In this document: one piece after another, positions 41,555 to 47,640 of the stretch
How the letters are laid out: every line of letters begins with the position of its first letter
Numbering within the stretch: the stretch's first letter is position 1
DNA from: Nocardioides zeae
GTDB taxonomy: Bacteria > Actinomycetota > Actinomycetes > Propionibacteriales > Nocardioidaceae
Direction: 5' to 3'
Assembly: GCF_010686755.1 (NCBI RefSeq)
Contig: NZ_JAAGXA010000004.1
Location: forward strand, 234,427 to 298,426
DNA length: 64,000 nucleotides
The notes under the pieces: generated by a model
Database searches by the model: none
The model's input: only the letters and a program-made list of their open reading frames with translations
What the model was told of the DNA's origin: nothing
Program-made: the position numbers and the translations under genes

Positions 41555-41650
41555 TGCGTATCCGAAAGTGCAAAAGACTCGCGCTGTGACGTGTGCCGCA
41601 GTCGGGGGCCGGGCGGGGGTGGACGTGGGTCCGTAGCCCACAATCGAGGC

Positions 41651-42283
41651 ATGTCCGTCACGCAGGAGACCCCCGTCCGCGCGCCGCGCCCCGGCGCCGA
41701 GGTGCTCGCCGAGCCCATGCGCTCGCGCTGGAGCCCCGCGGTGTTCGCCACCGACGTCCCCGTCGGCGACGACGAGCTCGCCGGGATGCTGACCGCCGCC
41801 GCCTGGGCGCCGTCGACCGGGAACACGCAGCCGTGGGCGTACGTCGTCACCCGGGCCGGCACCGCGGCGTACGACGCCGTCATCGCCAGCCTGAGCAACG
41901 GCAACTCGGGGTGGGTGCCCACCGCGCCCGTCGTGATCGTCGCCGCCGCGCTCGTCGGGGAGTGGGAGGGCCGGAAGGGGATGGGCGACTACGCGCTCTA
42001 CGACCTCGGCCAGTCCGTCGCGCACCTCACCCTGCAGGCACAGGCCGTCGGGCTGCACACGCACCAGTTCGCCGGCTTCGACCACGAGGCGGCCGCGGCC
42101 GCGCTCGGCATCCCCGAGGCCTACCGGCCCATGGTCGGCATCGCCGTCGGCCGCCTGGGCGGCGACGAGCACGTCGCACGCGCCACCGAGGGCGACGTCG
42201 CGCGCCACACCAAGGACCGCACGCGCCGGGGCGCCTCCGAGGTGGGGTACGACGGCGTCTGGGGCACGCCCTTCCCGGGCTGA
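41651..42283 (+). CDS. Nitroreductase family protein
   Basis: 210 aa. FMN-binding MRSRWSPAVFATD (Arg-Ser-x-Arg type), the hallmark AAAWAPSTGNTQPWAYVV (about 54-71) and GLHTHQFAGFDHEAAAAALGIPE, ending with VGIAVGRLGGDEHVA. Flavin-dependent NAD(P)H oxidoreductase; natural substrate unknown. Divergent from tetR across the operator region. Ends before a block of repeats. Confidence 0.92.
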   Translation: MSVTQETPVRAPRPGAEVLAEPMRSRWSPAVFATDVPVGDDELAGMLTAAAWAPSTGNTQPWAYVVTRAGTAAYDAVIASLSNGNSGWVPTAPVVIVAAALVGEWEGRKGMGDYALYDLGQSVAHLTLQAQAVGLHTHQFAGFDHEAAAAALGIPEAYRPMVGIAVGRLGGDEHVARATEGDVARHTKDRTRRGASEVGYDGVWGTPFPG

Positions 42284-42353: not shown

Positions 42354-42452
42354 GAAAGAAAACGCGGACGGGACGGTCGGAGAAGCCCGGTTGGCACGTT
42401 CCAATCGACCGGCCGGTCCGCGTTTTCATTCGCCGGGTCCGCGTTTTCTTTC
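42354..42452. repeat. Compound inverted and direct repeat
   Basis: GAAAGAAAACGCGGAC (42354-42369) is perfectly complementary to GTCCGCGTTTTCTTTC (42437-42452); a third near-copy GTCCGCGTTTTCATTC lies at 42416-42431. A smaller dyad CCGGTTGG/CCAATCGACCGG is in the middle. The 3' end of the convergent small membrane gene is encoded inside this repeat. Confidence 0.75.
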
Positions 42453-42629
42453 GCCGGAGTCGGAGCCGGAGCCGCCGGAGCTGCCGTCGGAGTCCGACCC
42501 CGGTTCGCCCGTGGCCGGCCCGGTGCGGCGTCCGCCACGCCGGGCCAGGACGGCGAACACCACCAGCACCACCAGCACGACGCCGAGCACCACGAGGCCC
42601 AGCACCACCATCGACCCGAGCTGTGCCAT
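42426..42629 (-). CDS. Small single-pass membrane protein of the MNIO operon
   Basis: 67 aa: a hydrophobic helix (about 6-28, GSMVVLGLVVLGVVLVVLV), a basic RRGGRR and a polar Asp/Ser/Gly-rich tail. The ATG overlaps the stop of the preceding cysteine-rich gene (TGATG), so it is translationally coupled despite a weak ribosome site. Its last residues GERKRGPGE are encoded by a repeat unit. No family recognised. It may help membrane localisation of the modified product (inference). Confidence 0.62.
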   Translation of the reverse strand: MAQLGSMVVLGLVVLGVVLVVLVVFAVLARRGGRRTGPATGEPGSDSDGSSGGSGSDSGERKRGPGE

Positions 42630-42889
42630 CAGCTGCTCGACCCGCAGCCGCCGCCACCGCACGACGACCCGGAGCTGCACGAGCTCGAGCTGCAGGAGCT
42701 GGACCCGCAGGACGAGTCGTTGCCGGAGTCGCTGCTGCCGCAGCCCCCGACGTACCCGCCGCCCGCGCCGTACGCCCCGCGGCGCCCGCGGGACCGGCGC
42801 CGCTGGCTCGAGGTCGCGTTGGTGCTGACGGCGAGGGCGATCGCTCCGGCCACCACCGCCAGCACGACGCACACGATGACGATCGTCAT
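42629..42889 (-). CDS. Membrane-anchored Cys/Ser/Gly-rich small protein, possible MNIO substrate
   Basis: 86 aa. Hydrophobic N-terminal helix (3-22), a basic linker RRRSRGRRG (31-38), then a low-complexity tail with cysteines at 50, 61, 66, 71, 77 and 82, mostly one every five residues, separated by Ser/Gly. Starts with ATG overlapping the partner gene stop and ends overlapping the next start. Regularly spaced Cys in a low-complexity tail beside a DUF692 enzyme is what one expects of a RiPP precursor-like substrate. This role is an inference; no homologue is recalled. Confidence 0.75.
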   Translation of the reverse strand: MTIVIVCVVLAVVAGAIALAVSTNATSSQRRRSRGRRGAYGAGGGYVGGCGSSDSGNDSSCGSSSCSSSSCSSGSSCGGGGCGSSS

Positions 42890-43338
42890 GGTGCAGCTCC
42901 TTCCGAGAGGCCGGCGCGGGGCCGGCGGGTGAGGTGCCAGGTGCGGCTACCCAGTCCGAGGACCAGGGCCCGCCGACCGGCGATCGTCACGACGGCCGCG
43001 CGGCGGCGTCCGTCGTGGACGGCGTGGAGACGCAGCCAGTCGGCGGCGTCGGGATGGGCCTGCGGGAGCCACGCGGCGAAGGCCGCGAGGTCGTCGTGCG
43101 CGCACCCGGCAGCCGGGTGCGTGGCCGCCCAGCCGTGGAAGCGGTCGCGCCAGGCGGGCAACAGGTCGAGCTCGGGCGCGATGCGGAGCACGGCGTCGCT
43201 GCGCTTGCGGTGCAGCACGCGGGTCGTCAGCGCCGTTCCCGCCGCGCTCGCCGGGGCGAACCCGGGCGGGACGTCCCCGCGCAGCAGCGCGGCCAGCACC
43301 TCCTCCTGACGGCCGGCCAGCCGCGCGCGGGCGCTCAC
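42886..43338 (-). CDS. MNIO partner-like protein
   Basis: 150 aa, GTG start overlapping the stop of the MNIO gene (GTGA). N-terminus RLAGRQEEVLAALLRGDVPPGF resembles the helical N-terminus of DUF692 partner proteins (DUF2063/HvfC, MbnC-like); the middle is HGWAATHPAAGCAHDDLAAFAAWLPQ and the C-terminus ends VVTIAGRRALVLGLGSRTWHLTRR. Partner proteins recruit the precursor peptide to the MNIO enzyme. Assignment rests on position and general pattern, so it is tentative. Confidence 0.65.
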   Translation of the reverse strand: MSARARLAGRQEEVLAALLRGDVPPGFAPASAAGTALTTRVLHRKRSDAVLRIAPELDLLPAWRDRFHGWAATHPAAGCAHDDLAAFAAWLPQAHPDAADWLRLHAVHDGRRRAAVVTIAGRRALVLGLGSRTWHLTRRPRAGLSEGAAP

Positions 43339-44222
43339 CGGTCCGCTCCCGCCGGGAGGCGCCGGGCGACGGCGGCCCGCAACGCGTCGTACTCGCCGGC
43401 CACGGCCTCCGGCGTCACGTCCTCGTCCCGCTCCAGCAGGATGCCGGGGACGGGCAGCCCGCGCTGCCGGTACGCCGCGGCCAGCGTCGTCACGAGCCCG
43501 AGCACCGCCGGGACCATCGCGTGGGCGTGGGTGTCGAGGTAGAGCCCGTCGGGCCGTTCCTGGCCGCCGGCGACGTGCACGTAGGCGACGGCCTCCAGCG
43601 GGAAGCGCAGCAGGTCGGCGACCGGGTCGCTGCCCCGGGCGACCGCGCTCGCGTGGAGGTTGGCGACGTCGAGCACGAGACGGCAGTCCGTGCGCTCCAC
43701 GAGGGCGGTGAGGAAGTCGGGCTCGTCCAGCGTGTCCTCGGGCCAGGCGAAGAGGGCAGCGATGTTCTCGACGGCGAGCGGCACGGGCAGCGCGGCCTGC
43801 GCCGTCCGCACGTTCTCGACGAGCACCTCGAGGCTCTCGGCGGTGCGGGGCGGCGGCAGCAGGTGTCCGGCCTCGAGCACGTCGCCGTGCAGCGGGTCGG
43901 GGGTGGCGGCCGCGCGCACGAAGGCCACGTGCTCGCTGACCAGCGGCGCCCCCAGGGCCTCGGCGAGCGCGGCGAGGTGGGCCAACCGACGGGGGTCGGG
44001 CACGTCCGCCCCGGCCAGGCCCAGCGTCACGCCGTGCGGGACCACCGTGACGCCCGCGTCCCGCAGCGCCACGAGCTCGTCGGGCAGCCGCGCGGGGTCG
44101 ACGTTCTCCGCGACGACCTCGGTGAAGGAGAGGTCGCCGGCGGCGGCGTACGACGCGAGCAGGTCCGCCACCGGCCGCCGCCACGCGACGGCCGTGCCGT
44201 GCGGAGCAGGGGCGCGGACCAT
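43335..44222 (-). CDS. DUF692 family multinuclear iron-dependent oxidase (MNIO)
   Basis: 295 aa TIM-barrel protein of the DUF692/MNIO family. Candidate metal ligands: FTEVVAEN (Glu35, Glu39, Asn40), VPHGV (His63), SEHVAF (Glu97, His98), VENIAA (Glu142, Asn143), LVLDVANLH (Asp175, His180), VHVAGG (His206), LDTHAHAM (Asp220, His222, His224) and LLERDE (Glu264). Known members (MbnB, TglH, BufB) oxidise peptide cysteines using two or three irons. First gene of a four-gene overlapping operon. No good ribosome site precedes the ATG, so a leaderless mRNA is possible. Confidence 0.9.
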   Translation of the reverse strand: MVRAPAPHGTAVAWRRPVADLLASYAAAGDLSFTEVVAENVDPARLPDELVALRDAGVTVVPHGVTLGLAGADVPDPRRLAHLAALAEALGAPLVSEHVAFVRAAATPDPLHGDVLEAGHLLPPPRTAESLEVLVENVRTAQAALPVPLAVENIAALFAWPEDTLDEPDFLTALVERTDCRLVLDVANLHASAVARGSDPVADLLRFPLEAVAYVHVAGGQERPDGLYLDTHAHAMVPAVLGLVTTLAAAYRQRGLPVPGILLERDEDVTPEAVAGEYDALRAAVARRLPAGADR

Positions 44223-47416: not shown

Positions 47417-47640
47417 TCCCCCCGGGTCGTGGGGGGGGGGGCGGCGGGGGGGGGGGGGGGGGGGGGGCCGCGCGGGGGGGGGGGGGGGGGGGGGCCCGCC
47501 CCGGGGGGGCGGGGGGCTCTTTTATTGCGCCCCGCCCGGGTTGGGCGCCCCCGGGCTTGGTGGTCGGGGGCCCGCCCCCCACGACTGCGTTCGGGGGCGG
47601 GTCCCCGTAACAGCGCAGGAGTAGCGTCGCCGCACCACGC
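47417..47640. other. Poly-G block, probable assembly or sequencing artefact
   Basis: Between malic enzyme and the permease the sequence is almost pure G runs (several stretches of 10 or more G) followed by an atypical CTTTTATTGCG patch and near-complementary C/G blocks. True sequence here is probably a GC-rich hairpin misread by the instrument. Any reading frame crossing it should be ignored. A natural G-quadruplex region is the alternative. Confidence 0.6.

Follow-up and report, generated by a model that had tools for sequence, protein, structure and literature searches.

A short single-helix protein with a cysteine-spaced tail as a putative MNIO substrate in Nocardioides zeae and other actinobacteria

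The TglHI and MbnBC pairs, each an MNIO (DUF692) enzyme with its partner protein, have soluble precursors in which one or two cysteines are modified, and are accompanied by further processing genes. Bufferins carry Sec signal peptides and are encoded with DUF2063 (PME-type 1) partners (PMC12452194), while the EGKCG repeats of captophorins give thiooxazoles (PMC13097082). Antoine et al. (2025) proposed that the Ser/Gly/Cys C-terminal tails of TIGR04222 membrane proteins, which are found mostly in Actinomycetota together with PME-type 2 partners and whose tails are predicted to be extracytoplasmic, are also MNIO substrates (PMC12452194). Here we describe an operon in a 64,000-nucleotide stretch of the Nocardioides zeae genome (contig NZ_JAAGXA010000004.1, positions 234,427 to 298,426; hereafter the window) that encodes an MNIO, a partner protein and an 86-aa membrane protein with a Cys-spaced Ser/Gly tail. 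We favour, with moderate confidence, the reading that the MNIO and its partner oxidise the tail cysteines while the helix of the small protein keeps the tail tethered on the predicted cytoplasmic face of the membrane.

The cysteine-tail protein, its predicted topology and its enzyme

The operon consists of four minus-strand genes which, as the preliminary description had it, follow one another with overlaps of 4, 4 and 1 bases. The 86-aa protein (42889-42629, minus strand), the likely MNIO substrate, is the product of the only small Cys-rich gene of the operon. Its N-terminal helix (residues 2-29; 42803..42886, minus strand) leads directly into a basic stretch, RRRSRGRR (residues 30-37), and then into a tail with cysteines at positions 50, 61, 66, 71, 77 and 82 (C50 to C82; 42644..42742, minus strand). 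An extra cysteine, Cys7, absent from the earlier list, lies inside the helix. Relative to the gene of the nearest relative (locus L031), 14 of the 20 base differences fall at codon position 3, 13 of the changed codons are synonymous and five are not, and all seven cysteines are kept.

The 30 aligned tails, including that of the window, have in common one N-terminal hydrophobic helix, a cluster of basic residues that follows it, and a Ser/Gly tail. Beyond the helix each has three to seven cysteines and often, as judged by eye, an aromatic residue or pair ahead of a Gly stretch. The spacing of the cysteines is non-random: in the 27 distinct tail cores, 81% of the Cys-Cys steps span 4-6 residues and none is shorter than four, whereas steps of 3-6 residues make up a mean of 36% in shuffled tails and none of 1000 shuffles reaches 81%. 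The tail had been portrayed as carrying a cysteine every five residues, of which the regularity stands while the period is only approximate, the steps in the window being 11, 5, 5, 6 and 5. Ser precedes a tail cysteine in 89 of 128 cases, and the residue after the cysteine, where there is one (127 cases), is always Gly or Ser. The coding pattern against L031 and the spacing against the shuffles led us to reject the tail as an artefact of reading frame or composition.

In the AlphaFold model of the 86-aa protein residues 2-29 form one confident helix and the tail is disordered, with a pLDDT below 50 for nearly all of residues 27-86. The mean net charge around the helix of the 30 tails is -0.2 before and +4.2 after it; the positive charge is biased to the C-terminal side in 28 of them, and in none is the segment before the helix net positive. 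Because the positive charges follow the helix, the positive-inside rule predicts that the tail faces the cytoplasm. Judged from these charges, the short tails also do not have the positive N-region before the hydrophobic core that characterises a Sec signal. A product that is both anchored and inside would need neither protease nor exporter; a cytoplasmic tail would thus account for the absence of such genes and fits the gene set.

The tail could instead be modified by the MNIO but lie outside the membrane, forming a surface-tethered metallophore as proposed for TIGR04222 proteins. Such a location would agree with the extracytoplasmic prediction for the similar Ser/Gly/Cys tails of the latter (PMC12452194), to whose enzymes the MNIOs of short-tail loci are related, and with the distribution of the partner family, since the partner profile also finds a match at 25 of the 27 further MNIO loci from actinobacteria (L043-L069), and at least seven of these encode a TIGR04222 protein. 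The basic cluster that follows the helix, and the want of a net positive charge ahead of it, make an outside tail rather unlikely.

The MNIO (295 aa; 44222-43335, minus strand) belongs to the PF05114 superfamily, with a score of 200.5 bits against a Pfam cut-off of 25, and is the sole PF05114 match in the whole 4.4-Mb genome. All of the nine iron ligands reported for TglH (PMC10880893) are present, E152, D185, N188, H216, D230 and H232 being assigned by alignment with TglH and H63, H98 and E264 by motif and spacing. None of them varies in an alignment of 88 MNIO rows, which includes some duplicates of one genome.

The 150-aa protein encoded next (43338-42886, minus strand, GTG start) had been assigned the partner position, and its predicted fold does look like that of an MNIO partner. 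The AlphaFold model comprises a helical domain and then a short beta C-terminus, and its best structural matches are MbnC and TglI, with modest Z scores. With this TglI/NGO1945-related predicted fold, no DUF2063 signature in Pfam (the mark of PME-type 1, the bufferin-system partners) and a gene near the MNIO, the protein is PME-type 2-like. A Pfam scan of eight partners found no family and a Foldseek search with the partner returned nothing useful, while its database relatives carry a precomputed PF26136 assignment.

Taken as a sequence of steps, the proposed modification would begin with insertion of the tail protein via its helix, N-terminus out, leaving the tail in the cytoplasm, where the presumably cytosolic MNIO-partner complex would oxidise the cysteines successively. 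By analogy, each tail cysteine may become a thiooxazole-like or related oxidised group. The Cys-then-Gly repeats resemble the thiooxazole repeats of captophorins (PMC13097082), which points to copper or another soft metal as the most likely ligand; the product, neither cleaved from a leader nor exported, would thus probably bind soft metal ions at the membrane, with copper the likeliest among them. Another MNIO reaction on the same cysteines, such as carbon excision, cross-linking or thioether chemistry, could give a structural or signalling product that does not bind metal. It would be in keeping with the several reactions that MNIOs catalyse (PMC13097082), with the best NCBIfam score of the enzyme, 142 bits to BufB, far under the model cut-off of 310, and with the lack of metal-related genes among the neighbour genes scanned; the likeness of the Cys-then-Gly/Ser repeats to the thiooxazole-giving EGKCG repeats (PMC13097082) nevertheless renders it very improbable.

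Linkage of tail, partner and enzyme across actinobacteria

The enzyme, the partner and the Cys tail are kept together in four actinobacterial families and in three gene orders. A scan of public genomes for the MNIO gave 19 loci, in 16 of which a short Cys-tail gene stands beside it; these loci come from Nocardioides, Williamsia (with a tandem pair of tails), Tsukamurella, Metallococcus, Flexivirga and a record that bears the name Kitasatospora. No tail is adjacent to the MNIO in L005 and L006, and at the Polyangiaceae locus L018 a TIGR04222 protein takes the place of the short tail. The order MNIO-partner-tail (Tsukamurella L017 included) occurs alongside MNIO-tail-partner (Tsukamurella L013, L015 and L020) and tail-MNIO-partner (genus g19), while N. 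luteus has an adjacent tail without a partner and a second tail, 5 kb off, with one. The conserved Cys spacing beside DUF692 that the preliminary description proposed to look for is therefore found, as relatives across genera stay linked to the MNIO and partner genes and keep spaced cysteines.

In the MNIO tree of 69 rows, 32 MNIOs from short-tail genomes form one clade (support 99/93). The remaining four of the 36 short-tail rows, of which three belong to family f19 and one to f18, are placed among MNIOs linked to TIGR04222 proteins. The tail-type label switches at least three times, the direction of the changes not being fixed since the tree is rooted by midpoint only, and 'short tail' here takes in five rows with the tail nearby and not adjacent. 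The MNIO of L011, from a Kitasatospora arboriphila record, is near-identical in the tree to that of Williamsia muralis, and this assembly is probably contaminated.

At the level of whole genomes, the association was assessed in 294 Nocardioidaceae, of which 20 have an MNIO and 274 do not. Cys tails were found in 18 of the 20 MNIO-bearing and in none of the 274 MNIO-lacking genomes (E 1e-4), a comparison to be read with the relatedness of the genomes in mind and with a first profile pass that scores only some candidates per genome. The two other MNIO genomes, G004 and G284, carry MNIOs that are distant in the tree. At E 1e-4 the tail profile itself matched 19 genomes, of which 14 have an MNIO; a second profile, built from Cys-free look-alikes, added G243, G247 and G283, and inspection of 72 kb of G249 added the last. 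Every one of the 18 genomes in the short-tail MNIO clade thus carries a Cys tail. In 13 of them it lies within the operon or next to it, and in the other five it is about 5-23 kb off, adjacent to a partner gene.

Four of the matches in the five MNIO-less genomes that this profile picked out lack Cys, and the fifth is no tail at all. Look-alikes without tail cysteines were found in six MNIO-less genomes (G072, G137, G195, G206, G234 and G251); they consist of a helix and a Gly/Asp/His tail, in most cases with a basic cluster as well, and one has a cysteine inside the helix. Compared with 200 composition-matched shuffles of their own tails, four score above all shuffles and the others above 197 and 199. 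In five of the six genomes the look-alike gene adjoins coaE (by tblastn, with CoaE confirmed by Pfam in two); this coaE-linked locus suggests that they are probably paralogues at another locus and not orthologues that lost their cysteines, which qualifies the genome-level comparison. Homologues without cysteines, which the preliminary description would have counted against the system, were thus seen only in MNIO-free members of the sampled Nocardioidaceae, and five of the six lie at this other locus. Three matches were rejected as tails: that in G212 has two stops and lies inside transporter-like frames, that in G076 (L116) belongs to a frame of more than 2000 aa without tail-profile match or Cys/Ser/Gly tail, and the second one in G206 (L120) lies inside a frame of more than 2000 aa.

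As a separate observation, a Cys-free single-helix gene with a Gly/Asp/His tail stands beside coaE in Nocardioides-type genomes without MNIO (L083, L086, L087, L110 and L111) and encodes an uncharacterised small membrane protein.

In a wider sample of 394 Actinomycetes genomes, 94 have an MNIO, and the 19 genomes in which a tail was found at E 1e-7 (the threshold for the Nocardioidaceae was less strict) are all among them. The tail lies within 0.8 kb of the MNIO in seven of the 19. The other 12 belong to genus g46, where it is 1.7-2.3 Mb away or on another contig; this genus is Streptomyces, the L098 tail being identical, as judged by eye, to the named Streptomyces protein P0017. The Streptomyces co-occurrence is given no weight, the tails being unlinked and MNIO present in 36 g46 genomes, with the number of MNIO-less ones not listed. 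A search of protein databases with the tail profile, in which 7979 candidates, not all, were scored, gave 40 proteins; 33 of the 40 were inspected, and those with a named source come mostly from actinobacteria, the exceptions being from Paenibacillus and Methylobacterium.

Orphan short Cys tails far from the MNIO, often with a WWAG-like motif, were noted in Streptomyces (L090-L093, L097-L102, L104 and L106) and are candidate in-trans substrates.

The unlinked Streptomyces tails would suit a different role, in which the MNIO has another target and the Cys tail serves, unmodified, as a metal- or redox-active membrane protein: spaced cysteines in a flexible tail could bind metal as they are, and no modified product is known. 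We regard it as improbable, since the operon offers no other small Cys-rich gene, the linkage persists through three gene orders and the look-alikes found in MNIO-lacking Nocardioidaceae are devoid of tail cysteines. Returning to tails oxidised by the MNIO, we tentatively suggest that they form a family resembling ribosomally synthesised and post-translationally modified peptides (RiPPs), possibly one whose product is never cut or exported, with an MNIO clade to itself, a small partner and, in enzyme-less genomes, counterparts that lack Cys, the oxidised Cys tails being metal-binding arrays tethered to the inner face of the membrane.

Accessory and neighbouring genes

The last gene of the operon (42629-42426, minus strand), overlapping the 86-aa gene by one base, encodes a 67-aa Cys-free single-helix protein with the same helix-and-basic layout as the 86-aa protein. 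It had been listed as one of the four operon genes, and it is indeed present there, but it is not a core component: of the relatives, just the two closest, L031 and L033, were found to carry it, with the helix conserved and the tail, also without Cys, diverged, and blastn did not find it in L002/L003 or in their copies L038/L034. The gene is best seen as an accessory or a decayed paralogue.

A nitroreductase-family gene (window positions 41600-42283, plus strand) is convergent with the operon and is also its neighbour in L003; MNIO-nitroreductase fusions have been mentioned (PMC12452194). Very long G and C runs at 47432-47520, just past the malic-enzyme frame, look like low-quality or assembly-damaged sequence.

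Comparison with known systems

The TglHI and MbnBC systems share with the window the iron ligands of the enzyme, and TglI and MbnC are the nearest structures to the partner model. Bufferins and captophorins (Buf1, Buf2, EGKCG; BufB-BufC) likewise combine a small Cys-repeat protein, an MNIO and a partner, and their order precursor-MNIO-partner recurs in genus g19; the short tails differ in that the charges around their N-terminal helix are reversed and that their partner has no DUF2063 match. The adjamnio-V group consists of 'very small proteins' encoded after MNIO genes and is not shown in the main text of the survey (PMC12452194). The tails of three Tsukamurella loci and N. luteus also come right after the MNIO, and the two families may overlap.

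With the TIGR04222 systems the short tails share actinobacterial MNIO operons, the disordered Ser/Gly tail with spaced cysteines and the partner family. They differ in having one helix instead of several, and in the side of the membrane predicted for the tail. The TIGR04222 model (NCBIfam) matches none of the 30 short tails at E 0.01 and nothing in the N. zeae genome, whereas at E 0.001 it matches all 10 multi-helix Cys-tail proteins chosen from other MNIO loci as a positive control, nine of them above the cut-off; membership of the short tails in TIGR04222 was therefore rejected. A crude helix scan of 13 actinobacterial TIGR04222 proteins gave a neutral or negative charge past the last helix in seven, +4 to +7 in five and +1 in one, and +5 in the Polyangiaceae protein of L018; in the positive cases the scan probably stopped at an earlier helix. 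The opposite topology of TIGR04222 tails is therefore taken solely from the published prediction (PMC12452194).

Our literature searches found no paper on MNIO in Nocardioides, and a search combining DUF692, Cys-rich and transmembrane helix gave nothing further. The 2025 survey sought precursors among the genes preceding the MNIO and partners among those following it (PMC12452194), so that tails encoded after the MNIO could have escaped notice as precursors. If the proposed function is correct, MNIO chemistry extends to proteins that remain in the membrane of the cell that makes them, with neither leader cleavage nor an exporter. How an MNIO handles a membrane-anchored substrate is left open for TIGR04222 proteins in that survey (PMC12452194), and three genes, with six tail cysteines and one in the helix, offer a tractable model. 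The preliminary description called the system undescribed, which is too strong: Ser/Gly/Cys membrane tails had already been proposed as MNIO substrates (PMC12452194), and the present system is a small single-helix variant of them, with the tail predicted on the opposite side of the membrane.
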